32,905 nt of DNA from an uncultured Bacilli bacterium (lineage in GTDB: Bacteria; Bacillota_I; Bacilli_A; RF39; UBA660): contig CANQWB010000013.1 of NCBI GenBank assembly GCA_947627435.1, positions 1 to 32,905 of the forward strand, in the 5' to 3' direction. The notes beneath the pieces were generated by a model that had not been told where the DNA came from, made no database searches, and saw nothing but the letters and a program-made list of their open reading frames with translations. Positions 554 to 28,963 of this stretch are shown in pieces (the stretch's first letter is position 1; the number at the start of each line of letters is the position of its first letter). The translations under genes were made by a program, and so were the position numbers.

Positions 554-1000
554 ATGAGACAAGCGATTGGAAGTACTTTTCTCTATAATGTGATTATTAT
601 TTTTATTGTAATCACTTTTTGTTTCCTAGCGGCAACATTAAGTTATATGAAATCTTACAAAATGAATGGTAAGATTGCAAATTTATTGGAAAAGTATGAA
701 GGTTATAACACATTATCTGCAGCAGAAATTGAAACTTCACTTAGCAATTTAGGTTATCGTATCAGTAAAGATGGTAATATAAGTTGTTCAGAGAGAAAAC
801 ATAATGGAAAAACCTATTCTCCAATTAAAGAATTTGGAACAAATTATAAATATTGTATCTATGAATATCCAAAAAAAGATGGATATTTTACCTATGGAAT
901 TGTAACATATATTTATATGGATATTCCTATAGCAAGCGGTACATTTTCACTTCCTGTTTATGCAGAAACAGAACGTATTTATGAATTTACGCAGAAGTAA
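554..1000 (+). CDS. TadE/minor-pseudopilin-like membrane protein, paralogue of the next gene (148 aa)
   Basis: The RBS TAGGTGGTG precedes ATG 554. A short N-terminus (MRQAIGSTFLYN) is followed by a transmembrane helix (about residues 12-31) and a mostly beta-type extracellular domain. The helix-exit segment (LLEKYEGYN) and the end (YIYMDIPIASG, PVYAETER) are closely mirrored by the next ORF, showing tandem duplication. The pattern of an N-terminal hydrophobic helix plus a small C-terminal domain ending in an 'IP...VYAET' strand is like TadE/TadF-type minor pilins. Two cysteines (ISCSERK, KYCIYEY) may form a disulfide. It lies between the 58-aa pilin-like gene and its paralogue with short gaps, so it is almost certainly in one transcript. 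The pilin-like role is inferred from architecture and context. Confidence 0.6.
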   Translation: MRQAIGSTFLYNVIIIFIVITFCFLAATLSYMKSYKMNGKIANLLEKYEGYNTLSAAEIETSLSNLGYRISKDGNISCSERKHNGKTYSPIKEFGTNYKYCIYEYPKKDGYFTYGIVTYIYMDIPIASGTFSLPVYAETERIYEFTQK

Positions 1001-1011
1001 GAGGTGATGAA

Positions 1012-1434
1012 ATGAAAGAATCCATTGCAAATGCATATATATTCAACATCGTAATTGTTTTTGTTGTAATCTTTATTTTCTTTTTTGCAGGTTCATTAAC
1101 ATATTCAAAAGCATTTAAAGTAAAGAATAGAATTGTAGATATTATTGAAAAGTATGAAGATTATAACACAGATGCGGTTACTGAAATTTCTTCAACATTA
1201 GGAGAAATGGGTTATCGTGTAAATACAAGTAACAAAGGATGCGATATACGTAATGGAAAAGAATCATTGACTATGACTTTTAATTCTTATCGTTATTGTG
1301 TTTATGAATATGAAACACCAAAAGGTAAATATTATGGTGTTGCAGCCTACATGTATTTTGATTTACCAATCATAGGGCAGTCTTTAGAATTTCCTGTATA
1401 TGGGGAAACCAAAATACTAGGCATTTTAAGATAA
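1012..1434 (+). CDS. TadE/minor-pseudopilin-like membrane protein, second paralogue (140 aa)
   Basis: It starts 11 nt after the previous stop with the RBS AGAGGTGATG. It has the same architecture as its neighbour: a 12-residue N-terminus (MKESIANAYIFN), one hydrophobic helix (about residues 12-31), then a small domain. Matching blocks include IIEKYEDYN versus LLEKYEGYN, GYRV versus GYRI, RYCVYEYE versus KYCIYEYP, and FDLPIIG...PVYGETK versus MDIPIAS...PVYAETE. The CDIRNG/YRYCVYE cysteine pair is kept. Conservation of the folded domain together with divergence of loops suggests two distinct minor subunits rather than a recent copy. Followed after 20 nt by the TadZ-like gene. Function is inferred. 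Confidence 0.6.
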   Translation: MKESIANAYIFNIVIVFVVIFIFFFAGSLTYSKAFKVKNRIVDIIEKYEDYNTDAVTEISSTLGEMGYRVNTSNKGCDIRNGKESLTMTFNSYRYCVYEYETPKGKYYGVAAYMYFDLPIIGQSLEFPVYGETKILGILR

Positions 1435-1454
1435 AAAGGGAGGATATCAGTCTC

Positions 1455-2459
1455 ATGAATGTTATTATAGCAAACAAGCAGCAATCAATGTTACAAAATC
1501 TCGGTATTGATATCATTAAGACTTTAGAAGGAGAATTTGATGTTGATGATATTGTGTCACAATTTCGAAATTTCTTTTTTCAAAGAATGATTTTAGACAT
1601 TACTGCAATCAAAAATTATAAAGATATAAGAACATTACAAAAATTATCTATAGCATTAGATATGGATAAAGTTATTTTATTATTAGATGATTCTGAAGAA
1701 AGCGGTTCTAATGAATACTTGTCTAAATTGATTTCAATGGGAATTTATAACTTTACAAAAAATGTAGAAGGTATTATGTATTTATACAATAATCCAAATA
1801 CATATCGTGATGTTGCCCATATTCATCAAATCGACAATAACCAACCACAACAAGTAGTAGTAGAAAAACATGTTGAAGTAGAACCAATAGTTGGAACAAA
1901 AATTATTGGAGTAAAAAATGTAACCAAACAATCTGGTGCAACTACTTTAATTTATATGATGGTAAAACAATTAGAAAAAAATTATTCTGTGGTAGCTTTA
2001 GAGATCAATAAAAGCGATTTTCGCTATTTCAACGATAAAAAACTAATTTCTATTCCAAATACAGAACTCTCTGATACAATTTCTAAGTATAGCTATTGTA
2101 ATACGATTTTGATTGATATTAACGATAGCAAAGAAGCTGAAGACTTATGTGATGAAGTGCTTTATTTAGTAGAACCATCTATCATTAAATTAAATAAATT
2201 AATGCTTGTTAATAGTAATGCATTCAAAGAACTTAAAAATAAAAAAATCATTTTAAATCAAAGTTTATTAAATGCAAAAGATGTATTGGATTTCGAATAT
2301 GAATCTGGTTCAAAAATTTATTACAACATGCCACCACTTGATGAACGAGAAAAAAGCATTCATGCATTAAACTTATTATTAGTAAGATTAGGTTTTACAA
2401 AGCAACAAACAGATGAACAAGAAAAGAAAAATAGTATTTTAGGTTTGTTTGGAAAATAA
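1455..2459 (+). CDS. TadZ/CpaE-like SIMIBI (MinD-family) ATPase with degenerate P-loop (334 aa)
   Basis: The RBS GGGAGGATATC precedes the ATG. The N-terminal ~120 residues look like a pseudo-receiver domain (alternating strands such as MILDITA and VILLLDDSEE). A linker at about 125-150 leads to a MinD-like core that opens with GVKNVTKQSGATTL. Ser160-Gly-Ala-Thr-Thr replaces the usual GK(S/T): the P-loop lysine position is Ala162, as is typical for TadZ/CpaE proteins, which localise pilus assembly to a cell site. Further core strands are VVALEINKSD and CNTILIDIND, the latter in the Walker-B position. Placement directly after pseudopilins and before VirB2/VirB6 genes suggests it positions or licenses the secretion machine. 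Assignment to the Tad family comes from architecture and motif, not a search. Confidence 0.65.
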   Translation: MNVIIANKQQSMLQNLGIDIIKTLEGEFDVDDIVSQFRNFFFQRMILDITAIKNYKDIRTLQKLSIALDMDKVILLLDDSEESGSNEYLSKLISMGIYNFTKNVEGIMYLYNNPNTYRDVAHIHQIDNNQPQQVVVEKHVEVEPIVGTKIIGVKNVTKQSGATTLIYMMVKQLEKNYSVVALEINKSDFRYFNDKKLISIPNTELSDTISKYSYCNTILIDINDSKEAEDLCDEVLYLVEPSIIKLNKLMLVNSNAFKELKNKKIILNQSLLNAKDVLDFEYESGSKIYYNMPPLDEREKSIHALNLLLVRLGFTKQQTDEQEKKNSILGLFGK

Positions 2460-2542: not shown

Positions 2543-2899
2543 ATGTTGAACGTATTAAAAATGGTAACTTGTAATGGATTAAATGGATCAATTGATTATA
2601 TTGTTCCTGGAACAATTAGTACAGTAATCACAATTATTAAAATTGGGATCCCAATTTTATTGATCATCTTTGGTATGATTGATCTTGGAAAAGCTGTTAT
2701 GTCAAATGATGAAAAGGAAATGAAGAGTTCCCAAACAAGATTAATTAAAAGAATTTTATATGCCGTAATTGTATTCTTCATTGTTGCAATTGTACAATGG
2801 ATATTCCAAATTGTAGATGCCGATGTTGTAGAAGAAAAAGGTGGAACAAAAAGTTGTCTTAACTGCTTTATCAACGGTAATTGTACTACTACTGAATAA
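2543..2899 (+). CDS. VirB2/TrbC-like pilin, first copy (118 aa)
   Basis: A small two-helix membrane protein: a polar N-terminus with one Cys, hydrophobic helix 1 (about residues 24-47, ISTVITIIKIGIPILLIIFG), a short charged cytoplasmic loop (AVMSNDEKEMKSS), hydrophobic helix 2 (about 68-90) and a Cys-rich polar tail (SCLNCF, GNCTT). This two-helix hairpin with a basic/acidic loop is the VirB2/TrbC pilin layout of type IV secretion systems. No cleavable signal peptide is obvious, unlike its neighbour. It has a consensus promoter, a strong GGAGG RBS and a dedicated terminator, as expected for a major subunit needed in excess. The antisense ORFs at 2360-2542 and 2596-2874 are shadows. Confidence 0.7.
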   Translation: MLNVLKMVTCNGLNGSIDYIVPGTISTVITIIKIGIPILLIIFGMIDLGKAVMSNDEKEMKSSQTRLIKRILYAVIVFFIVAIVQWIFQIVDADVVEEKGGTKSCLNCFINGNCTTTE

Positions 2900-2914
2900 T
2901 AAATTTCAAAATTT

Positions 2915-2953
2915 AAAAAGTAATAAGATAAATATTTCTTATTCTTTTTTTTT
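2915..2953 (+). terminator. Intrinsic terminator between the two VirB2-like genes
   Basis: AAAAAG plus AATAAGA (2915-2928, one bulged T) pairs with TCTTATT plus CTTTTT (2937-2949) around an 8-nt loop, followed by a long T-run. Partial read-through would give the first pilin excess transcript over the downstream channel genes. Confidence 0.75.
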
Positions 2954-2954
2954 A

Positions 2955-2963
2955 TGTTATAAT
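2955..2963 (+). promoter_or_regulatory. Extended -10 promoter for the second VirB2-like gene and the T4SS operon
   Basis: TGTTATAAT (TG 2955-2956, TATAAT 2958-2963) lies directly after the terminator T-run and 32 bp before ATG 2995. No good -35 box is visible at 17 bp, so activity would depend on the extended -10 motif. Confidence 0.5.
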
Positions 2964-2994
2964 GTATATGTGGAAAAATATATGGGTGATTGAG

Positions 2995-3378
2995 ATGAAA
3001 AAAACAGTGAAAATTATAAGTATTATTATCATGTTATTAATGATTTGTAATATAGAAAATGTAGGAGCAAGTGATCAAGTAACCGGTTGTAATCTTTTAG
3101 GCGATAACACTACTCCAATTGTACAGTGGATAATTGATCTGATTCAAATTGCAGTTCCAATAATAATTATTATTATGACAATCATTGATTTTACAGGAAT
3201 TGTATTATCTGGAGAAGAAAAAAATTTTAAAGCTGCAGGAAGCAAATTATTGAAAAGGTTAATTATTGGTGTTGTGATTATTCTATTACCGATGTTATTA
3301 GCATATATTATTGACTTAAGCGGTGTCTTAGTACCCTATGGTATTGATCGAGGCCAAATATTTTGTTCGTTATTTTAA
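2995..3378 (+). CDS. VirB2/TrbC-like pilin, second copy with signal peptide (127 aa)
   Basis: The ORF track begins at 2962, but ATG 2995 is preferred: it follows GGGTGATTGAG and opens a classical signal peptide (MKKTVKII, hydrophobic core, then VGAS, with predicted cleavage near residue 26). The mature part has two hydrophobic helices (about residues 39-66 and 80-106) joined by a charged loop (SGEEKNFKAAGSK). This matches the hairpin of the first copy, where the loop reads SNDEKEMKSSQTR. This is the standard VirB2 layout. It is followed by VirB6-, PrgI- and VirB4-like genes with tight spacing. The two copies differ enough to be distinct subunits, for example a major pilin versus a channel-base or minor component. 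Which copy forms an extracellular polymer cannot be told from sequence. Confidence 0.7.
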   Translation: MKKTVKIISIIIMLLMICNIENVGASDQVTGCNLLGDNTTPIVQWIIDLIQIAVPIIIIIMTIIDFTGIVLSGEEKNFKAAGSKLLKRLIIGVVIILLPMLLAYIIDLSGVLVPYGIDRGQIFCSLF

Positions 3379-3394: not shown

Positions 3395-5521
3395 ATGACA
3401 GAATCATGGATTTTAGACGGGGTTCGTAATGTATTTGGAGTAATTGATAATATTATTTTTTCATTAATTGCAATTGTATACGACATTATATTACAAATTA
3501 CCAAGATTGAAATATTTTCACCAGATAGCAAAAGTGTTCAAGATATTACAGGTAGAATTTATGGCTTACTTGCCATTATTATGTTATTTAAAGTTTCTTT
3601 TTCTTTAATTTCTTATTTAGTCAATCCAGATGGAATGACTGATAAATCTAAAGGTGCTCAAAAAATCATAGCGAATGTATTGATAGTACTGATGTTGATT
3701 ATAATAACTCCAACTGCTTTTACAAAATTATATCAAGCACAAAATGCCATTCTTGAAGATAATATTATTCCCAAATTTATTTTGGGTAGGCCAGAGGAAA
3801 CATTAGAGGGTAATAAGAGCTATTATATGTCATCCAAATGTGAGGAGGAAGGATTTAACATGTCTTCCACCAATACAGATGGAAATTTTATTTCTCTTTT
3901 AATTTTTAGACCTTTTTATCAAATAGAGTCATCAAGGGGGAATAGTAGAGATGACATTGCTTCTTATTGTGAAATTGGAACAAATGGAAATGCTCAAGTA
4001 GCACTATATACATTGAATCTTTCTATTTTAAATTCAGCACCAAATGGAATAAAAGATACATATGTTATAGATTATAAATTTTTTCTTTCAACTATAACAG
4101 GAATTATTGTTTTACTCATTTTCATTTCATTCTGTTTTGATATTGCCGTACGTTGTATTAAATTAGGATTTTTGCAAATTATTGCACCAGTGCCTATCAT
4201 ATCATATATAGATCCAAAATCTGGTAAAGATGGAATGTTTAAAAAATGGTTGAAAGAGGTAGGTAAAACATGGGCATCTTTATTTATACGTTTAGTAGGA
4301 TTGTTCTTTGCGGTTAGTATTATTGAATTGATTGTAAACCAAAATATATTTGCACAAGTAGGAAGTCATAAACTATGGGTAGAATTATTTGTTATTATCG
4401 GTGCTTTCATATTCGCAAAACAATTGCCAAAATTGATAGAAAATATTTTAGGTATTAAATTAGATAGTCATTTGATATTAAATCCAATCAAAAAAATCAA
4501 AGAAGAAGCTCTTGGAGGAAAAACAATTAGTAGTGTTCCAGGAAAAGCATTGGGTACTACAACTGGAATGATAGGTGGAGCGATTGCAGGACATATTGCT
4601 GGACAACAAGTAGGTATGGCTAAAAGAGGAACCATCATAGGTGCTGTAGGTGGTATGCAAAACGGTTTCAAAGAAGGTAAGTTCTCATTTACGAAAGGTA
4701 TGCAAGAGCAATATAAAAACCTAACGGGTAATGAGATGGCTAGACTTTCTGTATCCAAACTTTTAGTGCATGATGCAGCTGAACTTGAAGTTAAAAAAAT
4801 TAAAGACAACTTGAGTCTTGCTTACGCAAACTTAAATGATCGCCGATCTGCATTAAATGACTCTGAAAGAATGAGTTCTGAACTCGCATTGACACTTAGC
4901 AATAAGGGATACAATGTCCATGATATATCAGGTACTCAAAATCAAGTGAATCATAATATAGCAGATCAAACTGCTAAGATTGAAGAATTGAGAAAAAATA
5001 GTGCAAGTGAAATAGATAAATATCAAGATAGTATCAATAAATTTAATCAAGAAATGGAAAGATATAATTCGGCTAAAAAAATATTAAGTGAACCGTCATC
5101 TTCTGTTATCGACCCTAAAACAGGACGTTCTATTGATGCACCTAAACGTTTAGACGCAGAAAATATTATTAAACAATTTGAAAATAACGAAGGAGCATAT
5201 TTAAAACAGATTCAATTAGACCGTGATCGTGCTGAAGAATCTCATCGTCGATATCATCAAGACATTTCACGTGCAGAACAAGTGCTAGAAGGTTATAAAG
5301 AAGATTATAAGTTCCTTGAAAGATATGTATCAAATAAGAATTATGAAGATGAAATTAGAACTGAAATTAGTGCAATCGAAAAAGATATTGAGACATTCAA
5401 AAGTCAAAAAGGACAAACAGAAAGATTTGGACAATTGGATCGATCACCACAAGGAGATTATAGAAAGGCAGAAGCTAACCAAAGAAAGATGGCAAATAAA
5501 CATGGCATCAAACCAAGATAA
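3395..5521 (+). CDS. VirB6/TrbL-like T4SS inner-membrane channel protein with cytoplasmic coiled-coil tail (708 aa)
   Basis: The RBS AAAGGAGGG precedes ATG 3395. Membrane segments lie at about residues 19-40, 55-76, 90-108, 229-272 (long, probably two), 291-312 and 328-346. A polar loop with two cysteines occurs between the third and fourth groups. The central conserved-looking stretch (DIAVRCIKLGFLQIIAPVP) and six-plus helices are typical of the VirB6/TrbL/CD1112-type polytopic component. After the last helix comes a glycine/alanine-rich segment (about 375-415, e.g. GMIGGAIAGHIAG) and then roughly 270 residues of charged heptad-like sequence forming a long coiled coil to the end. Such a large cytoplasmic tail is unusual for the minimal family and may dock VirB4, VirD4 or substrate. 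ORFs at 4468-4809(-) and 5316-5621(+) are shadows. Confidence 0.75.
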   Translation: MTESWILDGVRNVFGVIDNIIFSLIAIVYDIILQITKIEIFSPDSKSVQDITGRIYGLLAIIMLFKVSFSLISYLVNPDGMTDKSKGAQKIIANVLIVLMLIIITPTAFTKLYQAQNAILEDNIIPKFILGRPEETLEGNKSYYMSSKCEEEGFNMSSTNTDGNFISLLIFRPFYQIESSRGNSRDDIASYCEIGTNGNAQVALYTLNLSILNSAPNGIKDTYVIDYKFFLSTITGIIVLLIFISFCFDIAVRCIKLGFLQIIAPVPIISYIDPKSGKDGMFKKWLKEVGKTWASLFIRLVGLFFAVSIIELIVNQNIFAQVGSHKLWVELFVIIGAFIFAKQLPKLIENILGIKLDSHLILNPIKKIKEEALGGKTISSVPGKALGTTTGMIGGAIAGHIAGQQVGMAKRGTIIGAVGGMQNGFKEGKFSFTKGMQEQYKNLTGNEMARLSVSKLLVHDAAELEVKKIKDNLSLAYANLNDRRSALNDSERMSSELALTLSNKGYNVHDISGTQNQVNHNIADQTAKIEELRKNSASEIDKYQDSINKFNQEMERYNSAKKILSEPSSSVIDPKTGRSIDAPKRLDAENIIKQFENNEGAYLKQIQLDRDRAEESHRRYHQDISRAEQVLEGYKEDYKFLERYVSNKNYEDEIRTEISAIEKDIETFKSQKGQTERFGQLDRSPQGDYRKAEANQRKMANKHGIKPR

Positions 5522-5553: not shown

Positions 5554-5871
5554 ATGAATTTTTTGATACCGGCAAATTCAAAAAAATCAATGATGATATT
5601 TGGGCTATTTTACCCATTTGATCTCATATTATTTGGAAGTGGCATTGGTATTACATTATTACTAATGATGTTTCTTCCAATTAGTGATACAATGTTGGCA
5701 CTTATTTCTATTGCACCAGCATTGATAACAGGTTTTCTGGTCTTTCCAGTGCCTAATTATCACAATGTATTGACAGTTATAATAGGGGTTTGGAATTTCT
5801 TTACAACACGACAAAGATTCGTGTGGAAAGGTTGGTGTGTAACAGATGAAGAACAAAAAGAACAGAAGTAA
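5554..5871 (+). CDS. PrgI/VirB3-like T4SS membrane protein (105 aa)
   Basis: The RBS AAAAGGGGATG precedes ATG 5554. A short polar N-terminus (MNFLIPANSKKS) leads into two adjacent hydrophobic helices (about residues 18-40 and 45-63) and a basic C-terminus with an aromatic stretch (YHNVLTVIIGVWNFF) ending in charged residues. This is the PrgI/VirB3 pattern found immediately upstream of VirB4 in Gram-positive conjugation modules. The end of the gene overlaps the next ORF by 26 nt, indicating translational coupling. VirB3-type proteins anchor VirB4 at the membrane and the gene order fits that role. Confidence 0.75.
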   Translation: MNFLIPANSKKSMMIFGLFYPFDLILFGSGIGITLLLMMFLPISDTMLALISIAPALITGFLVFPVPNYHNVLTVIIGVWNFFTTRQRFVWKGWCVTDEEQKEQK

Positions 5872-6394
5872 ATATACAGAACAATTTGTACCTATTAAAA
5901 GTATTACAAATGGTATGATTATATTGGACAGTAATGAAAAAGTAAGTGGAATCAAAATTATGCCAAGGAACATTTTCATTGCTGATTACGACACACAAAC
6001 AGCAATCATTAATAATCTAAAAAATGTGTATAACATGATTGATTATGAATTTTGGATTATTGCAGCAGATCGTCCAGTAGATATTAATGTATATTTATCA
6101 CAATTACAATTACTATTTAATTCTGTAAATGATCAAGTAAAGAGAAAATTGATTATGGAAGATATTAATAAAGCAAATTTGTTTATGAATAACAATATTG
6201 TAGATACAGAATATTTCTTATTGTTTAAAGAAAAAAATAATGATGTTATTGCTAAAAGAATTCGTCAATTGATTAATGCTTTTGCAAGTGCAGGACTAAA
6301 TTCTCATCAGGTTACCAATGATGACTTAAGAATTATACTAGACAATTTCTTAAATGGTGGTCAGACGACTACGTTTGGAACGGTGGTGGCATAA
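5846..6394 (+). CDS. TraC-like N-terminal VirB4 domain encoded as a separate protein (182 aa)
   Basis: ATG 5846 lies inside the end of the PrgI-like gene, and the stop overlaps the ATG of VirB4 by one base (TAATG, 6392-6396). The segment EQFVPIKSITNGMIIL, followed by a strand and helix module (FWIIAADRPVDINVYL), resembles the TraC-like domain that precedes or is fused to VirB4 in several Gram-positive and CPR-type systems. Its 182 residues plus the 594 of the next ORF give a normal full-length VirB4 (about 776). It may therefore be a naturally split VirB4 or the product of a frame change at the junction. The clean coupled start argues for a functional split. No transmembrane helix and no P-loop are seen; it is presumably a cytoplasmic VirB4 partner. 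Confidence 0.6.
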   Translation: MKNKKNRSKYTEQFVPIKSITNGMIILDSNEKVSGIKIMPRNIFIADYDTQTAIINNLKNVYNMIDYEFWIIAADRPVDINVYLSQLQLLFNSVNDQVKRKLIMEDINKANLFMNNNIVDTEYFLLFKEKNNDVIAKRIRQLINAFASAGLNSHQVTNDDLRIILDNFLNGGQTTTFGTVVA

Positions 6395-8178
6395 TGGATG
6401 TAAAAAGTCAAATTGCTCCAAAAGGTCTTGAATTTAAATCCAATTCCTTTATTATCAGTGATAAATATGCCACAATATTAACAGTAATTTCCTATCCACG
6501 ATATATTCAACCAGGATATCTATCTTCATTAACAAGTATGTCTGGAATCAAAGTTGTCATTAAACATATTCCTTTACCATTTAGTGTAATTAGTAAAATG
6601 TTAAACAAAGAAATTGCGGACTTAAAAGTAAGATTTCAAGATACAAACGATCGTACGATACAAGAAAGAATTCGTCAAGATTATGAATCTTTAGAACAAT
6701 TTATTTCACAATTGGCTGCATCACAAGCAAAAATTTATGATTTTCAAATGCATATTATGATTACAGCAAATAGTGAAGATGAATTAAACACTAAGAAATT
6801 ACAAGTACGCAGTTACTTAGAAGCAATGGAAATGAGAGCGTTCCCATTGCGATTTGAACAAGAAAAAGTATTAAAATCAATTTTACCAATTTTTCCGAGC
6901 CAAGATATTGAATCTAGAATCGGAACACCAATTCCAGCTCCTACTATTGCGGCTATGTATCCATTTATATTTGATAGTATTAAAGATCCAGGACTTTCTG
7001 CATTACTTGGTGTAGACTTTTCCGGAGGAGTTATTCTATTCAATCAATTTTTATATCAAATTCGAAAAGAACACAACCGTAATAATGCCAATATGATTAT
7101 TTTAGGAACATCTGGTAGTGGAAAATCCACTGCTGCAAAAATATTACTAAGAACACATATCCGTAACAATTGTCAGTTAGTAATTATTGATCCAGAAGGA
7201 GAACTAGAAGATATGGCACGACGTTATGGAGGAGATTTCATCGACCTTGGAAAAGGTGGAGAATTTGGTATGGTCAATCCACTAGAAGTTATTATTGATG
7301 CCGATGATGAAGAAATCGAAGGTGGCTTAGGTTATACAGTTTTAACGAGAACACTACAAAGTATTAAAGCGTTCATGAAATATTATGATCCTAGAATTGA
7401 AGAAGATGTTCTTAACATGTTTAGTGAAGTAGTACAAGAAACTTATAGACGTTTCAATATTAGTTTTGAATCAGATTTTACACAATTGAAATCAATAGAT
7501 TATCCAACCTTTAAAGATGTTTATGCAACTATTAAAGGACGTTTAGCTTCTATGACGGAACCAACCCATGAAAAAGAAATCATGGAAAAATTAGAATTGA
7601 AAGTTCGCCCAATCGTAAAAGAATTAAAATATTATTTTGATGGGCATACAACTATTACATCTCAAAGTGATTTCATTGTGTTCAATATTCGTGAACTTAT
7701 GAATGCAGATACAAATATAAGAAATGCATTATTCTTTAATATTTTGAAATATGCTTGGGGTCTTACATTAGATAAAAGAGTCAATACTGTATTAATGGTA
7801 GATGAAGCACATGTGTTATTAAGTGGTAATAATACACTTGGGGCTGACTTCTTGGCACAGATTCAAAGAAGATCTAGAAAATACAATACGGGAACTATTA
7901 TTATTACACAACAACCAAGTGATTTCAGTAATCCAGATGTAATCACACAAGGAAAAGCTATCTTTGATAATGCTTCTTATTATTTAGTCATGGGACTGAA
8001 AAAACAAGCCGTAGAAGATTTATCACAATTGATAGATTTAAATGATAATGAAAAGGAAAATATCAAAAGATACAATCAAGGGGATGCGTTATTTGTGTGT
8101 GGTAGTAGAAGAATGCAGATTAGTATAATTGTAACAGAACAAGAATTAGATTCCTTTGGAAGTGGTGGAGGACTATAA
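6394..8178 (+). CDS. virB4: VirB4-family T4SS ATPase (594 aa)
   Basis: It starts at the coupled TAATG junction. The N-terminal ~190 residues (SQIAPKGLEF, YATILTVISYPRYI) match the pre-ATPase region of VirB4/TraC-type proteins. Then come the Walker A motif GTSGSGKST with Lys244, the following strand and IDPEGELEDMARRYGG, and a Walker B motif VLMVDEAHVLL with Asp470-Glu471. The C-terminal RRSRKYNTGTIIITQQPSDF block is diagnostic of the VirB4/CD1110-type ATPase. It hydrolyses ATP to drive pilin handling and substrate translocation at the cytoplasmic face of the VirB3/VirB6 complex. All catalytic motifs are intact. Only the extreme N-terminal TraC-like part is missing, supplied by the preceding ORF. 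Confidence 0.9.
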   Translation: MDVKSQIAPKGLEFKSNSFIISDKYATILTVISYPRYIQPGYLSSLTSMSGIKVVIKHIPLPFSVISKMLNKEIADLKVRFQDTNDRTIQERIRQDYESLEQFISQLAASQAKIYDFQMHIMITANSEDELNTKKLQVRSYLEAMEMRAFPLRFEQEKVLKSILPIFPSQDIESRIGTPIPAPTIAAMYPFIFDSIKDPGLSALLGVDFSGGVILFNQFLYQIRKEHNRNNANMIILGTSGSGKSTAAKILLRTHIRNNCQLVIIDPEGELEDMARRYGGDFIDLGKGGEFGMVNPLEVIIDADDEEIEGGLGYTVLTRTLQSIKAFMKYYDPRIEEDVLNMFSEVVQETYRRFNISFESDFTQLKSIDYPTFKDVYATIKGRLASMTEPTHEKEIMEKLELKVRPIVKELKYYFDGHTTITSQSDFIVFNIRELMNADTNIRNALFFNILKYAWGLTLDKRVNTVLMVDEAHVLLSGNNTLGADFLAQIQRRSRKYNTGTIIITQQPSDFSNPDVITQGKAIFDNASYYLVMGLKKQAVEDLSQLIDLNDNEKENIKRYNQGDALFVCGSRRMQISIIVTEQELDSFGSGGGL

Positions 8179-8207
8179 AATAATATAAATAGTTTGGTGG
8201 TGGTACT

Positions 8208-10553
8208 GTGGAAGATGAAGAATTAGAACAAGAAGAGATTCAAGAAGAATCTCTTGAAATAGTTGAGGAAGAAATTGAACAACCAGAAGAAGAAATCGTA
8301 TCCTCTTCTTCCACTGCAGCCCCAAATTTTTTTCATGATTTCAGTTCTAAAATCAGCAGTGATACTGGTAAACGAATTGCAGACACGATTCGTGCACATA
8401 AAAATAATCAGATGCAAAAACCGCAATCTAATGTAGATTCTGCTGAAACACCAGATAGTAATTCTGATGCAAGTACAGATAACGATTCTGATACAAGAAT
8501 AGATATTAGTTCTAATAATAACCAAAATCAAAAACAGAGTACAGTAAAAAAAGTACATGATGCAGCAACAGAAGTAGCTGGACAAGCTGTTTCAAAAGCT
8601 GCTTCCGCGGCATTACAAGCAGAAGGTGTTCCAACTCCGGTTGCAGATATAGTAGGATCTGTTGCAGGATATGCTGTAGAAGAAAAATTAAATAAAAAAA
8701 CAATTTCTCAAAAAATATTAGAATTTTTGGGATTTCCTGATGTCATTACAGTGAGTCCTCGCTTGTCACGAATTATTGTTGGTGGTACCATCTCTACCAT
8801 AACAACGCTTATAGTATTCATACTTTTATTTTCGATTTTTAATAATAAAAATAGTAATAACAAATTTCCATTATTGAGTTATCTTGCATATGGTGTAGTA
8901 GATGATAACAATGTATCACAAACTCTAACAGAATATTTGATGTCAAGTGGCTATTGTAAAAGTACAACTAATTGCTGGCAAACACCTGCATATGAATTTT
9001 ATGCTAGTTTTCGTAGTAAAATTGAAGATAAAATCAATGAGTTAGATGAAAAGTATAAAGGCTGTAATGTAGATAGTACCATAGGACTAAATGAGGAAGT
9101 AGCTGCTACATGGTTAGCTACATTGCTCTTTCATCGTGCCGAAGATGAATTATTATCATCGTATGGTTCAGAAAAATCTACCTCATTGGCACAATATAAA
9201 CAAGAAATGGATTTTTTAATAGATTCTACTTTTGGATTCGATGAGACCAATGATGAAGAAAATAATGCAGCAGGAAACAGCTGCCCTATGATTGATATGG
9301 ATAAATATCATGATAATATTACTAAACTTTCAGGTTATATTGATTTATATCGTGATGATTTAGAAATTAGTACATGGTCATCTACAGAAAAAGAAGAAGC
9401 TTATGCAGAAATATTAAAAGAACGCGATGCTTATTTAGGTATTAATATTGGAATATCAGGAATTAGTGGTTATGCTGAATGTTCAGGTGTTACTGTAGGT
9501 AAGGTAGATAATAAGGGAAATATTATTGATATTATTGGAACATATTCATTAGAAGATTATATAGCTGGAGTTTTAACAGCAGAGTTTGATGGATATCCAA
9601 TAGAAGCTATGAAAGCCCAAGCTGTTGCAGCCAGAACATATGTGCTAAATAAAACTAACTCATGCCAAAATGTTATAGGTAATAGTTCATATACTCAAAA
9701 TTTCAAAGCAAATGCATCTGCTACTGCAAAACAAGCTACCAATGCAACTGCAGGGGAGATATTAGTAGATGCATTAGGAAATATTTTCTCAGCTGAATAT
9801 GATTCTTGGAATTGTAAAGGAAGTACTACATGTACATATACAAAAAAACCAAATGGTGAAAAACATACTGTAACAATTTCGAACAAATATCTATCAAGGG
9901 CAGCTGGTGGACATGGCCGAGGAATGAGCCAACTTGCAGCAGCCGATATGGCAGATAAGGGAAGTAATTATCGAGAAATATTATCATTCTTCTATTCGGA
10001 TGGGGTCCAAATCACAAATCTAACAAAAATGAGTGGACCTGGATTAAGTGCTGCAAATCCATATGGGTTCCGTAAACGTATTTCTCAACCAGCAAAAAAT
10101 AGCGAAGGCGCACAATTTTACTTTTCTAATTTGAATAGATCTTATAGTAGTGGATATACAGGACAATGTACCTGGTATGCCTATGGCCGTGCCAATGAAA
10201 TTTTATCAGATGTCGGTAGTAATCTAAAATGGGATATTGCCAATAATGCAGGATTGTGGTACAGCACGAATTTACAAAATGGTGCTAGAGGATTTCAGTC
10301 TTCATCAGATTATACCAAACCAAAAGTAGGTGCAATTGTGGTATGGAAAAATGCTGGAGCACCTGGGCATGTTGCTATAGTAGAGGAAGTTCATGCAAAT
10401 GGAACTATCACGATTTCAGAAGCAAATATACCTACCAAAAAAAGTAATTCTAACCCATATGGATGGCAAACCGTTACTTTAACATTAGAAGAAGTACATC
10501 GACGTTGGAAATCGTATATATTTGCGGGATATATTTACTTGTTAGAATCCTAA
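8208..10553 (+). CDS. Membrane-anchored SpoIID/LytB-CHAP peptidoglycan hydrolase of the T4SS (781 aa)
   Basis: The start is GTG 8208, preceded by TTTGGTGGTGG. Domains in order: a very acidic N-terminus (1-35), a Ser/Asn/Asp-rich low-complexity region (to about 125), an alanine-rich helix (about 130-165), one transmembrane helix (about 188-211), an extracellular region of unknown fold with several cysteines (about 215-435), a SpoIID/LytB domain (about 440-605) and a CHAP domain (about 640-775). The SpoIID part keeps the catalytic-type Glu459 (TAEFDGYPIEAMKAQAVAARTY region) and the GGHGRGMSQ signature. The CHAP part keeps GQCTWYAYGRA (Cys654) and PGHVAIVEEV (His721). The pair would cut glycan strands and stem peptides to open the wall for the channel, the role of VirB1 or CD1108-type hydrolases. 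Using a sporulation-type lytic transglycosylase domain in a T4SS is unusual. Confidence 0.85.
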   Translation: MEDEELEQEEIQEESLEIVEEEIEQPEEEIVSSSSTAAPNFFHDFSSKISSDTGKRIADTIRAHKNNQMQKPQSNVDSAETPDSNSDASTDNDSDTRIDISSNNNQNQKQSTVKKVHDAATEVAGQAVSKAASAALQAEGVPTPVADIVGSVAGYAVEEKLNKKTISQKILEFLGFPDVITVSPRLSRIIVGGTISTITTLIVFILLFSIFNNKNSNNKFPLLSYLAYGVVDDNNVSQTLTEYLMSSGYCKSTTNCWQTPAYEFYASFRSKIEDKINELDEKYKGCNVDSTIGLNEEVAATWLATLLFHRAEDELLSSYGSEKSTSLAQYKQEMDFLIDSTFGFDETNDEENNAAGNSCPMIDMDKYHDNITKLSGYIDLYRDDLEISTWSSTEKEEAYAEILKERDAYLGINIGISGISGYAECSGVTVGKVDNKGNIIDIIGTYSLEDYIAGVLTAEFDGYPIEAMKAQAVAARTYVLNKTNSCQNVIGNSSYTQNFKANASATAKQATNATAGEILVDALGNIFSAEYDSWNCKGSTTCTYTKKPNGEKHTVTISNKYLSRAAGGHGRGMSQLAAADMADKGSNYREILSFFYSDGVQITNLTKMSGPGLSAANPYGFRKRISQPAKNSEGAQFYFSNLNRSYSSGYTGQCTWYAYGRANEILSDVGSNLKWDIANNAGLWYSTNLQNGARGFQSSSDYTKPKVGAIVVWKNAGAPGHVAIVEEVHANGTITISEANIPTKKSNSNPYGWQTVTLTLEEVHRRWKSYIFAGYIYLLES

Positions 10554-10564
10554 GGAGGATTTAT

Positions 10565-11230
10565 ATGAAATATAAAAAATGGTATTTAATATTGCCAATA
10601 TGTTTGTTATTAGTAACTGGTTGTGATGTTACATATCAAATTGAGTTTCAAGATGATAAAATCATTGAAACCAATACTTTCTATTTACCCAATAGCGAAT
10701 TAGAGAATGATGACATTGTTACTACTTTAGAAAAAAAAGCACTAAATTATACCATGAATACGGACTTTTTGATTTCTCCTAAAACAGATATTATCAGGGA
10801 AGAAAATCAAACGGGATACGCAGTAACAAATGAATATAGTTATAATGATTATAGTACTATAGACAACTGTTATGATGCATTTAATATCATAAAAAAAGAT
10901 GGAACTGTAACAATAAGTACTTCTAATCAATTTCAATGTTTTCAGAATTATAATGAACTCAATCAAGTGAAGATCATGGCAAAAGTTAACTATAAAGTTT
11001 CGCAACATAATGCAGATGAGGTAAAGAAAAATACCTATATTTGGTATATAGATAAAAATAATGCAGCTAGTAAGCCTATTCATCTTGTATTCAATTTAAA
11101 TCAAAAAATAAATAATTTTGCATTCACAAATTGGCAAACTTATGTTATAGTAATTGCATCATTCGTTATAATTGTGTTATTAGTTATATGGATGATTTCT
11201 AAAATATCAAAGAAAAACAACCAAATATAG
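10565..11230 (+). CDS. T4SS-associated lipoprotein with C-terminal membrane helix (221 aa)
   Basis: The ORF track starts at 10463, but ATG 10565 follows TAAGGAGGATTTAT and opens a lipoprotein signal: MKYKKW, hydrophobic core, lipobox LVTGC with Cys at residue 19. After the Cys comes a beta-rich extracellular domain opening with DVTYQIEFQDDKI, a feature common to Firmicute lipoproteins of the LppM-like type. A second hydrophobic helix near the end (about 193-214, YVIVIASFVIIVLLVIWM) is followed by a basic tail (SKISKKNNQ), so the protein would be anchored at both ends with the tail in the cytoplasm. It sits between the wall hydrolase and VirD4, and probably is a structural part of the envelope-spanning complex. 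The exact role is unknown. Confidence 0.65.
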   Translation: MKYKKWYLILPICLLLVTGCDVTYQIEFQDDKIIETNTFYLPNSELENDDIVTTLEKKALNYTMNTDFLISPKTDIIREENQTGYAVTNEYSYNDYSTIDNCYDAFNIIKKDGTVTISTSNQFQCFQNYNELNQVKIMAKVNYKVSQHNADEVKKNTYIWYIDKNNAASKPIHLVFNLNQKINNFAFTNWQTYVIVIASFVIIVLLVIWMISKISKKNNQI

Positions 11231-11241
11231 GAGGTTTTGTT

Positions 11242-13329
11242 ATGAAATTAAAATTTAGAGCGGAAACAAAAGATGTCGTAATATTTATAATATTTTCAAT
11301 TGCCTTACTTTACTTTATTGCAATAGCAATTTTGAATGTAGTTGCATTCTTAAATGATTCGACCTTACATGGATTGAATCCGTTACCTGCTTTTCAAGGA
11401 CAATATTTAGCACCAACGATGGTATTCTATATTGCCTTCATGATTGCCATTATTACTGGTGTTTCATCTTACTTTTTTGAACGTGAAAAAGGTATTGGTT
11501 TTGCAACTGGAGGAAAAAAGGAAAATGGATATTCACATTGGGCAAAAGACAAAGAAATGAAAAAGCAATTAAAATTGGTTCATCCACATGATGAAAAAAG
11601 TGAATATGCTGGAATTCCACTAATCAATAATGGTCATGAACTGTGGGTAGACAATGGTGAGTATCACAATATTGTAATTGGTAGTACAGGATCTGGAAAA
11701 ACCGAAATGTTAGTACAACCAATGGTTAAAATATTAGCAAAAAAAGGGGAATCTATGATTATCACCGATCCAAAAGGTGAAATTTATGAAAACAATGCCA
11801 ATGAATTACGAGAAAGAGGATATAATATTGTATTATTGAACTTTCGTGATCCTCAAAACGGAAATTGTTGGAACCCACTTTCTTTACCATATGAATTATA
11901 CAAAAATGGAAATTCAGATAAAGCCAATGAGTTATTAGATGACTTAGCAAAAAATATTCTTTATGATGAATCTGCAAAAAATAACGATCCATTCTGGGAA
12001 AATACTTCAGCTGATTATTTTGCAGGATTGGCTTTAGCATTATTTGACGATGCCAAAGAAGAACAGATTAACTTAAATAGTATTAACTTAATGACAACTG
12101 TTGGAGAAGAAAAAATAGGCGGAACAACCTATATGAAAGAGTACTTTAGTGATAAAGATCAAAGTTCTCCAGCATACATCAATGTGGCAAGTACATTAAT
12201 GGCACCATCGGATACAAAAGGTAGTATTTTATCTGTATTTAAACAAAAGATAAAATTATTCTCTTCTAGAGAAAATCTATCAGAAATGTTATCTCGTAGT
12301 GATTTTGATATGGAGGATATCGGACGTAAAAAAACAGCGGTATTCATTGTTATTCAAGATGAAAAGAAAACATATCATTCACTTGTTACCATTTTCTTAA
12401 AACAATGTTATGAAACATTAATTCGAGTAGCACAAGAAACAGGTGGTAAACTATCTTATCGTACAAACTTCATTTTGGATGAGTTTGCCAATATGCCACC
12501 ATTAAAAGATGTTACTACTATGGTTACAGCAGCACGTAGTCGTCATATTCGTTTTACCTTTATTATTCAAAACTTCGCACAATTATATCAAGTGTATGGA
12601 AAAGAAAATGGTGAAACAATTAAAGGTAACTGTGGTAATATCATTTACTTAATTAGTAGTGAACTTGCTGCACTGGAAGAAATTAGTAAGATGTGTGGAG
12701 AAGTAAAATCCAAAAAAGATGATAAAACAGCAAGTACACCACTTGTAACTGTAAGTGATTTACAACGTATGAAATTTGGATCTATGATTTTACTTCGTAC
12801 TAGGTGTATGCCATTTAAGACTACATTAACACCAAATTATGATATGGTAAAACAAGGCCTTTGGGGACATGATTACGGAAAAGCTAAATATCCACAAAGA
12901 GAAAAACAACCAGTAAAATTATTTGATTTAAAAGCTGTAGTGAATGAAAAAAGACAAAAGAAAATGGATGATATGTTAAATGGAAAAGGTCCTATGCCAA
13001 ATATGTCAGGAATGCCAGGAATGCCGGGAATGGGATTTCCAAATATGCCAAGAATGTCAGGAATGGGTGTTCCAACACCAAATAATATGGGTAATAATAA
13101 CTTTAATGTGGATGATTTGGTAAAACGTATCGATGCTCAAATTGCAGCTTTAGAAGAAGAAGAGCGTAGAGAAAAAGAAGCACAAGAAAAAGCAAAGAAA
13201 GAAACAGAACAAACTACTATTATTTCGGAAGATTCTTCTATTAAAGAAATATCACAACCAAAATCAATTACCACAGATGAAATTACCGATGATCAGTTTT
13301 TTGATGATTTCTTTAGTGACGATGATTAG
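11242..13329 (+). CDS. virD4: VirD4/TraG-family type IV coupling protein (695 aa)
   Basis: The strong RBS ATAGGAGG precedes the ATG. Two N-terminal membrane helices (about residues 9-36 and 54-77) are followed by the TraG/VirD4 ATPase: Walker A GSTGSGKTEM (Lys153), ITDPKGEIYENNA, the FRDPQNGNCWNPL block typical of the family, Walker B FILDEFANMPP (Asp413-Glu414) and a RHIRFTFIIQNFAQL sensor-like segment. The protein selects substrates and feeds them to the VirB4/VirB6 channel. After the ATPase there is a Met/Pro/Gly-rich low-complexity linker (about 580-615, repeats of GMPGM type), then a charged helical region and a very acidic end (DDFFSDDD). The linker and acidic tail are not part of the core family and may bind substrate or a partner. 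Confidence 0.9.
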   Translation: MKLKFRAETKDVVIFIIFSIALLYFIAIAILNVVAFLNDSTLHGLNPLPAFQGQYLAPTMVFYIAFMIAIITGVSSYFFEREKGIGFATGGKKENGYSHWAKDKEMKKQLKLVHPHDEKSEYAGIPLINNGHELWVDNGEYHNIVIGSTGSGKTEMLVQPMVKILAKKGESMIITDPKGEIYENNANELRERGYNIVLLNFRDPQNGNCWNPLSLPYELYKNGNSDKANELLDDLAKNILYDESAKNNDPFWENTSADYFAGLALALFDDAKEEQINLNSINLMTTVGEEKIGGTTYMKEYFSDKDQSSPAYINVASTLMAPSDTKGSILSVFKQKIKLFSSRENLSEMLSRSDFDMEDIGRKKTAVFIVIQDEKKTYHSLVTIFLKQCYETLIRVAQETGGKLSYRTNFILDEFANMPPLKDVTTMVTAARSRHIRFTFIIQNFAQLYQVYGKENGETIKGNCGNIIYLISSELAALEEISKMCGEVKSKKDDKTASTPLVTVSDLQRMKFGSMILLRTRCMPFKTTLTPNYDMVKQGLWGHDYGKAKYPQREKQPVKLFDLKAVVNEKRQKKMDDMLNGKGPMPNMSGMPGMPGMGFPNMPRMSGMGVPTPNNMGNNNFNVDDLVKRIDAQIAALEEEERREKEAQEKAKKETEQTTIISEDSSIKEISQPKSITTDEITDDQFFDDFFSDDD

Positions 13330-19365: not shown

Positions 19366-20088
19366 ATGAAAAAAATAATTCCTTTTAAAAAAGATATTAT
19401 TTTTAAAACAAATATCGCAGAAATTACTAGTATTTCACTTGACCATACCTTACATATGGAAGAAAATAATTCCATCAGCGGAGATTTTACAGTGAGTGGA
19501 GACTATAAAATGACAGAAGCTAGTATTCATGTAGAACCTTTTTCATATAATTTACCATTTGATATTTCCATTGATGAAAAATATGAGGTAGATCAGGCAA
19601 GTATTGATATTAATGATTTTTATTATGAAATTGTAAATGAAAATGTACTTTCAGTAAATATTGAAGTGGTAATTGATGGGTTAAATGAATCCCTTATTTT
19701 GGAACAATCTCAAACAGATGAAAATGAGGAGGTGTCAGAAGAATTGGAACCAATTGTAATTGATCGATCTTTTGCCGAAGCTACATTAGATAACGAATTA
19801 CTAGAACCAGTTTCATCAGAAGCATGTGATGAAGAAGTTCCAGTAGAAGCAACAGAAGTCGATAGATGTATTGAACCAGAAGATGAAAAAATAAGTTCAT
19901 TATTTGATGCTATGGATGATAGTGTTGAAACATATCAAAGCTATAAAGTGTATATTGTAAGAGATGGAGATACTTTAGAAACAATTTTAGAAAAATACAA
20001 TATTACAAAAGAAGAATTAGAATCTTATAATGAAATGAAAGAAATTCATATTGGAGATAAAATGATTATTCCAACAGTACATGCGTGA
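19366..20088 (+). CDS. spoVID: SpoVID-like spore coat/encasement protein with C-terminal LysM (240 aa)
   Basis: The RBS AAAGGAG precedes ATG 19366. The N-terminal ~105 residues are a beta-rich domain (ITSISLDHTLHMEE, ISGDFTVSGDYKM, PFDISIDEKY) closely resembling the N-terminus of Bacillus SpoVID. It is followed by an acidic low-complexity linker (about 115-190) and a LysM domain at the end (YIVRDGDTLETILEKYNITKEEL...GDKMIIP). SpoVID tethers the coat to the outer forespore membrane and drives encasement; its LysM binds lipid II. At 240 aa it is far shorter than the Bacillus protein (575 aa), mainly through loss of the linker. The stop overlaps the next gene by 8 nt, reproducing the spoVID-ysxE pair. 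No sigma-E/K promoter was identified with confidence. Confidence 0.8.
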   Translation: MKKIIPFKKDIIFKTNIAEITSISLDHTLHMEENNSISGDFTVSGDYKMTEASIHVEPFSYNLPFDISIDEKYEVDQASIDINDFYYEIVNENVLSVNIEVVIDGLNESLILEQSQTDENEEVSEELEPIVIDRSFAEATLDNELLEPVSSEACDEEVPVEATEVDRCIEPEDEKISSLFDAMDDSVETYQSYKVYIVRDGDTLETILEKYNITKEELESYNEMKEIHIGDKMIIPTVHA

Positions 20089-28919: not shown

Positions 28920-28944
28920 GGGGGGGGTACTCCCTTTTTTTATT
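28920..28944 (+). repeat. G8 homopolymer with downstream TACT-CCC-T7 hairpin in the leader
   Basis: Eight consecutive G (28920-28927), then TACT, CCC and T7. GGG/CCC plus G-T wobble pairs can form a short hairpin ahead of a T-run, like a weak attenuator whose strength would change with G-tract length. It lies 36 bp upstream of the start codon and is the only G8 seen in this AT-rich window. Confidence 0.6.
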
Positions 28945-28963
28945 GTCTAAAGGAGAGATGTAT

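Follow-up and report, generated by a model that had tools for sequence, protein, structure and literature searches.

A SpoIID–CHAP hydrolase in the exchangeable hydrolase slot of a chromosomal T4SS locus of RF39 Bacilli

In the stretch of DNA analyzed here (32,905 nucleotides from a gut-type bacterium; hereafter the window), a membrane-anchored protein with a SpoIID and a CHAP domain is encoded amidst T4SS genes. How does a fold known from sporulation come to stand in such a machine, and what does it do there? A preliminary description, made from the letters alone, proposed that a sporulation-type enzyme had been recruited as the wall-opening enzyme of a T4SS module. Nearly all known monoderm T4SSs serve DNA transfer, and their hydrolases consist of a membrane anchor plus at least one extracellular hydrolase domain (PMC12857230). 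In the open-licence literature, we found no description of SpoIID in a T4SS hydrolase and nothing relevant on RF39 bacteria with a T4SS. In the following, we describe the protein and its operon, trace how the machine and its hydrolase are inherited, and weigh what the enzyme may do.

The hydrolase and its operon

Profile searches recognize both domains above the Pfam cut-offs: SpoIID (PF08486) at residues 440–520 (E 2.9e-14, 53.9 bits, cut-off 23) and CHAP (PF05257) at residues 646–740 (E 1.6e-19, 70.6 bits, cut-off 26). The NCBIfam SpoIID/LytB model TIGR02669 is passed just barely (85.5 bits against a cut-off of 83.3), and the equivalog model for stage II sporulation protein D, TIGR02870, gives 74.8 bits against a cut-off of 234.75. 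No SLT or lysozyme domain was matched by Pfam in the protein. Only one hydrophobic segment is clear (residues ~189–211), and the region before it begins with 45 residues of which 18 are acidic and none is basic. The membrane-anchored two-domain protein of the preliminary description is thus borne out, and E459, the GGHGRGMSQ motif, C654 and H721 all lie at the positions it gave. We also considered C536 and C542, which have the same spacing as C140 and C146 of the C. difficile enzyme, as a zinc site, but dropped this reading because their placement relative to the catalytic Glu differs and the ligand histidines are absent. A canonical-length SpoIID is encoded separately in the same genome, and the family of the host has retained both SpoIID and SpoIIP in canonical form.

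An AlphaFold2 model of residues 405–781 (mean pLDDT 84.4) yielded the SpoIID fold that had been expected. Its SpoIID part matches C. difficile SpoIID (5i1t) with a Z-score of 20.4 (rmsd 2.4 over 170 residues, 29% identity), and both B. anthracis SpoIID and C. difficile SleC (9h68) with 16.7. The CHAP part matches CHAP amidases and PcsB at Z 11–13, for instance S. aureus 5t1q at 12.7 and PcsB 4cgk at 11.7. Foldseek TM-scores for the whole model were low because any solved chain spans just one of the two domains, and we therefore used the per-domain Z-scores.

The gene is part of a T4SS operon and lies between virB4 and virD4 (Table 1). The T4SS context of the preliminary description is borne out by the split VirB4 and the TrbL-like protein upstream and by VirD4 downstream. 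Most of the relatives sampled show the order VirB4N–VirB4C–hydrolase–lipoprotein–VirD4, and in them, as in the window, VirB4N is preceded by small membrane proteins, the TrbL-like protein and a protein at the PrgI-like position. Two overlapping genes (5846–8178) encode VirB4 in halves, a split also present in the relatives that we examined. The VirB6/TrbL-like protein scores just under the cut-off with TrbL_4 (24.2 bits) and also under the cut-off with the pLS20_p028 family (3e-10). The lipoprotein adjoining the hydrolase diverges nearly as fast as the hydrolase itself, with about 30% identity where VirB4 has 75–94%; it could be a partner or regulator of the hydrolase.

Table 1. Features of the T4SS operon and of the slot hydrolase, in window coordinates
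Feature	Position	Strand	Description	Basis
Three conserved operon genes	554..2459	+	148, 140 and 334 aa; first two are small membrane proteins	without Pfam family
Two small membrane proteins	2543..3378	+	118 and 138 aa
VirB6/TrbL-like protein	3395..5521	+	708 aa	TrbL_4, pLS20_p028 family
Membrane protein at PrgI/VirB3 position	5554..5871	+	105 aa	assigned from position only
VirB4, N-terminal half	5846..6394	+	182 aa	NF045975, 3.4e-15
VirB4, C-terminal ATPase half	6394..8178	+	594 aa	NF045975, 2.8e-106
Slot hydrolase	8208..10553	+	GTG start, 781 aa; acidic N-terminal part, one TM helix, SpoIID, CHAP
Acidic N-terminal region	8208..8771	+	residues 1–188; predicted to be cytoplasmic	topology
Predicted transmembrane helix	8772..8840	+	residues ~189–211	Kyte-Doolittle maximum
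SpoIID-fold domain	9474..10025	+	residues ~423–606	Pfam, local HMM (443–602), fold match
E459 codon (SpoIID)	9582-9584	+
H569 codon	9912-9914	+	within GGHGRGMSQ (residues 567–575)
CHAP domain	10152..10547	+	residues 649–780	Pfam, local HMM, fold match
C654 codon (CHAP)	10167-10169	+
H721 codon (CHAP)	10368-10370	+
Lipoprotein	10568..11230	+	lipobox LLVTGC, C-terminal TM, fast-evolving	adjoins hydrolase; synteny
VirD4 coupling protein	11242..13329	+		NF045973, 297.8 bits (cut-off 250)

Inheritance of the machine and exchange of its hydrolase

The T4SS is a single-copy, fixed chromosomal locus that is inherited with the lineage. The C-terminal half of VirB4 is present in 251 of the 291 genomes of the GTDB family, usually in a single copy, and in a class-wide sample its clade (67–94% identity) was confined to the family: 34 of the 38 members sampled have it, against none of ~258 other Bacilli. 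Eight of the latter have a VirB4 relative of 30–33% identity. In a tree of 93 sequences, VirB4 is monophyletic in each of the 19 genera having at least two genomes, and across six genomes the identity of RmuC to the window ranks as that of VirB4 does. The downstream chromosomal neighbors rhodanese, VTT, RmuC and Lon recur in several genera. Accordingly, while the preliminary description was right about the T4SS genes, its module is not an ordinary conjugation module, but a family-wide locus with neither the horizontal spread nor the variable position of a conjugative element.

No relaxase was found among the scanned open reading frames of the window. A genome-wide search, confined to the classes MOBP, MOBT and MOBV, found no MOBP or MOBT relaxase in the window's genome; among 58 relatives, it returned strong MOBP matches in about eight, MOBT in one and MOBV in 34. 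Four MOBV (Mob_Pre) matches lie on other contigs of the window's genome (C1, C3, C20 and C26), and in trans the chromosomal T4SS may serve mobilizable elements with such relaxases.

Two other genes of the window should be mentioned. A spore-coat-type gene, encoding a SpoVID-N and LysM protein, adjoins Lon (19366–20088) in this genome of 1.2 Mb, and an 870-residue protein (28943–31555) combines a prepilin-type N-terminus (N_methyl) with an ALK/LTK-like glycine-rich domain (PF12810, 1.6e-26).

On the upstream side, the contig ends before a set of Tad-like genes is reached, which immediately precedes the T4SS genes in the ten relatives having sufficient sequence (among L159–L175). It includes an ATPase of the VirB11/TadA type (366–520 aa), which scores 111.9 bits with the VirB11 model and 91.8 bits with the TadA model, both under their own cut-offs, a weakly CpaB-like protein, a DUF5411 protein, two polytopic proteins at the TadB/TadC positions, assigned from position only, and, in most of the ten, a large variable protein. 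These genes are tightly packed, and in most genomes a gap of ~80–375 bases follows before the T4SS genes begin. Since Gram-positive T4SSs are without VirB11 according to a 2025 review (PMC12857230), an ATPase of this type beside a T4SS is unusual. The two sets may work jointly. In two distant Bacilli loci (L240 and L241), a CpaF-like ATPase is found beside a VirB4 of 30% identity.

To survey the hydrolases, we collected the proteins encoded between VirB4C and VirD4, a position we refer to as the slot, from 96 genomes, which were picked from the better-scoring VirB4 matches, so that the census leans to closer relatives. Local HMMs trained on the slot hydrolase families, which can mix up CHAP and NlpC/P60 (e.g. 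in L042) and overlook divergent copies, recognize at least one peptidoglycan hydrolase domain in the slot of all 96 genomes, in about 30 domain combinations. By Pfam, 113 of these proteins contain among them SpoIID (45), M23 (38), CHAP (31), C39 (13) and NlpC/P60 (12), next to glucosaminidase, phage lysozyme, VanY/M15 and others. SpoIID is found in the slot of 51 of the 96 genomes, about half of the sampled relatives thus being without it; in 48 it is fused to a peptidase, with CHAP, C39, M23, M15/VanY and NlpC/P60 as partners, and in 12, the window included, to CHAP. The SpoIID+CHAP fusion that had been singled out is present, but as one of many: at this locus, SpoIID is combined with no fewer than five types of peptidase. 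Three-domain hydrolases occur in the slot as well, and an M23–SpoIID–C39 form is encoded at two loci away from VirB4. Pairs of a SpoIID–peptidase protein and a lipoprotein, possibly spare cassettes, are likewise found away from VirB4 in L038, L040, L041 and L043.

Outside this clade, ten distant T4SS loci (30–33% VirB4 identity), which take in second T4SSs of two family members, have no SpoIID by the local HMMs; eight contain M23, NlpC/P60 or CHAP, and two no recognized domain. Plasmids and phages, whose records we searched for a SpoIID+CHAP relative, returned single CHAP matches only.

Mapped on the 93-tip VirB4 tree, the slot hydrolase domains are swapped much more rapidly than the machine itself changes. 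Architecture changes ~61 times, against a mean of 74 and a minimum of 69 for shuffled tips, and the presence of SpoIID changes 27 times, which lies inside the shuffled range. More than one slot architecture occurs in up to 11 of the 19 genera, some of which (e.g. genus 4) perhaps reflect a divergent domain missed by the HMMs. Judged by its sequence identities, the window protein is itself a case in which module exchange can be seen. With the CHAP domain of a species from another genus, which has it in a protein without SpoIID and whose VirB4 is 87% identical, its CHAP domain shares 66% identity, but with those of its congeners, whose VirB4 is 93–94% identical, only 38–42%. Its SpoIID domain, in turn, is 68–71% identical to those of its congeners and 60–63% identical to SpoIID domains paired with M15 rather than CHAP. 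In another relative (L004), the slot encodes two hydrolases, an NlpC/P60 and a CHAP protein (6981–8615 and 9320–10726 of that locus), and the N-terminal part of the latter, in the place of SpoIID, resembles by eye a double-psi beta-barrel (CGAC motif).

Origin and likely role of the hydrolase

Where does the SpoIID domain come from? Set against 25 cellular SpoIIDs, the slot SpoIIDs form one clan (support 0.998), and the window domain is placed apart from the SpoIID of canonical type found in its family. When weaker SpoIID-family matches were added, 12 SleC-like proteins among them joined the slot group (0.997 for slot plus SleC-like) and nested inside it, in a tree built on a short alignment of 138 columns. 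Because they fall within this group, we claim neither a single origin nor a single recruitment. SleC serves in spore germination; the SleC-like proteins have a compact SpoIID, together with PG_binding_1 in the three that were scanned. By these sequence comparisons, the slot domain appears less close to the engulfment SpoIID than to the compact germination-type branch. Of the proposed sporulation-type recruitment, the SpoIID fold within a T4SS operon thus stands, but the engulfment enzyme is not established as the donor, given that the slot SpoIID groups with proteins of the SpoIID plus PG_binding_1 type.

We consider it probable, by analogy with known systems, that the slot hydrolase is a VirB1-like wall-opening enzyme of this chromosomally fixed T4SS, with CHAP cutting peptides and SpoIID cutting glycan; since SpoIID takes the place of an SLT or lysozyme domain, we describe it as a variant working like VirB1. 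The single helix would anchor the protein, with the N-terminal part inside and both catalytic domains outside. Going by the biochemistry of the two families, CHAP would cleave the peptide part of peptidoglycan and SpoIID the glycan strand, via E459. CHAP might strip or loosen the peptides before SpoIID cuts the strand, which would repeat the SpoIIP–SpoIID sequence of engulfment within one chain, and the resulting local gap could provide passage for the T4SS and pilus-like parts.

This coupled sequence is not to be taken for granted, nor is the strand-specific cutting, coordinated with the peptide cut, that the preliminary description held possible and that would draw on what is known of the enzymes of two spore formers. 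The SpoIID enzymes of B. subtilis and C. difficile indeed require peptide-free glycan (PMC6221140), in line with the preliminary description, but that of Waddlia also cleaves peptide-bearing peptidoglycan (PMC6635528), so a dependence on denuded glycan should not be assumed. Likewise, in PrgK, which has the layout LytM–SLT–CHAP, only the middle domain is active, and LytM and CHAP are inactive and regulatory (PMC11323569); together with the Waddlia enzyme, this precedent cautions against assuming that CHAP and SpoIID are coupled.

As to whose wall is opened, the most economical role would be the one proposed for PrgK, the opening of the cell's own wall for assembly of the machine. The near-random turnover of domains counts against an enzyme that opens only its own, slowly changing wall, and the absence of SpoIID from about half of the relatives counts against the wall-opening reading as well. 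The fast exchange of domains on a stable machine suggests that a target varying more than this wall is tracked too, be it partner cells, inhibitors or phages. One may go further and picture the T4SS and the Tad-like pilus as a permanent cell-contact machine, whose wall-cutting heads are swapped like the tips of polymorphic toxins, SpoIID–CHAP being one such head; we offer this as a speculative and rather doubtful extension. It is unlikely that the enzyme acts mainly in trans on neighboring cells, its swapped domains matching the walls of partners or evading inhibitors much as those of polymorphic toxins and phage tail lysins. Slot architectures that vary within genera while VirB4 is inherited vertically, a window CHAP closer to that of another genus than to those of its congeners, and the Tad-like genes just upstream would fit such a role, as would the small genomes (~1.2 Mb), which recall the Patescibacteria, a group that cannot live on other cells without its T4SS (PMC12857230). 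However, the predicted helix suggests retention on the producing cell, PrgK is considered too short for reaching the recipient wall (PMC11323569), and a dedicated immunity gene was not recognized.

That SpoIID and CHAP are binding or regulatory modules instead of active enzymes seems quite improbable: the inactive domains of PrgK are a precedent, by which the window CHAP may be inactive as well, and several slot SpoIIDs lack the GHGxGMSQ motif, but every key residue is present in the window protein, and the catalytic Glu is kept in 47 of 50 slot SpoIIDs and the Cys–His pair in all 23 slot CHAP domains, across very divergent copies. Intact and widely conserved catalytic residues thus argue for activity. 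Finally, it is improbable that a conventional conjugative element (ICE) has by chance become widespread in the lineage and that the enzyme is its ordinary hydrolase, since the resemblance of VirB4 and VirD4 to ICE versions (NF045975, NF045973) and the MOBV relaxases elsewhere, with their scope for mobilization in trans, are outweighed by the single copy, the conserved neighbors, a VirB4 that is monophyletic by genus and restricted to the family among the Bacilli sampled, and a locus in whose scanned reading frames no relaxase was found.

Comparison with known systems

SpoIID is a glycan-cutting fold missing from the current review's list of T4SS wall-opening enzymes, and the T4SS described here, passed on vertically, behaves as part of the core equipment of an entire family, in contrast to the DNA-transfer T4SSs of monoderms. 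It is unusual that relatives nearly all keep the same machine with a different mix of hydrolases. The contrast between the conserved machine and its reshuffled hydrolase makes it a testable question whether the cell's own wall or that of another cell is cut, and the natural series of SpoIID–peptidase fusions lends itself to asking whether SpoIID needs a peptide-stripping partner.

The window domain shares its fold, catalytic Glu and GHGxGMSQ motif with the engulfment SpoIID, but is compact, ~165–185 of its residues aligning to the 285-residue chain of the latter, fused to CHAP and set in a T4SS context. It has the compact subtype in common with SleC-like transglycosylases (SpoIID plus PG_binding_1), which carry PG-binding repeats where the window protein has CHAP, and whose role lies in germination instead of in a T4SS. 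Among T4SS hydrolases, Orf14/CwlT of Tn916 is a two-domain enzyme, in which a glycan cutter precedes a peptide cutter. TraG of pIP501 (SLT plus CHAP) has the same order (PMC12857230), as does the window protein; both have SLT where the latter has SpoIID, and here the domains are exchanged between close relatives.

A close parallel in layout is PrgK of pCF10, a VirB1-like protein (LytM–SLT/MUR–CHAP) that is likewise membrane-anchored, with several extracellular domains including CHAP. The M23–SpoIID–C39 relatives are built likewise, except that their middle domain is a glycan-cutting module of a different fold. PrgK uses an SLT/muramidase module for the glycan where the window protein has SpoIID, its CHAP showed no activity whereas the CHAP residues of the window protein are intact, and it is encoded on a plasmid rather than in a lineage-wide chromosomal locus. 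In this last respect, a counterpart is found in the Patescibacteria (Saccharibacteria), monoderms with reduced genomes that also keep a chromosomal T4SS together with pilus genes (PMC12857230), although they differ from the lineage described here in phylum and pilus type.
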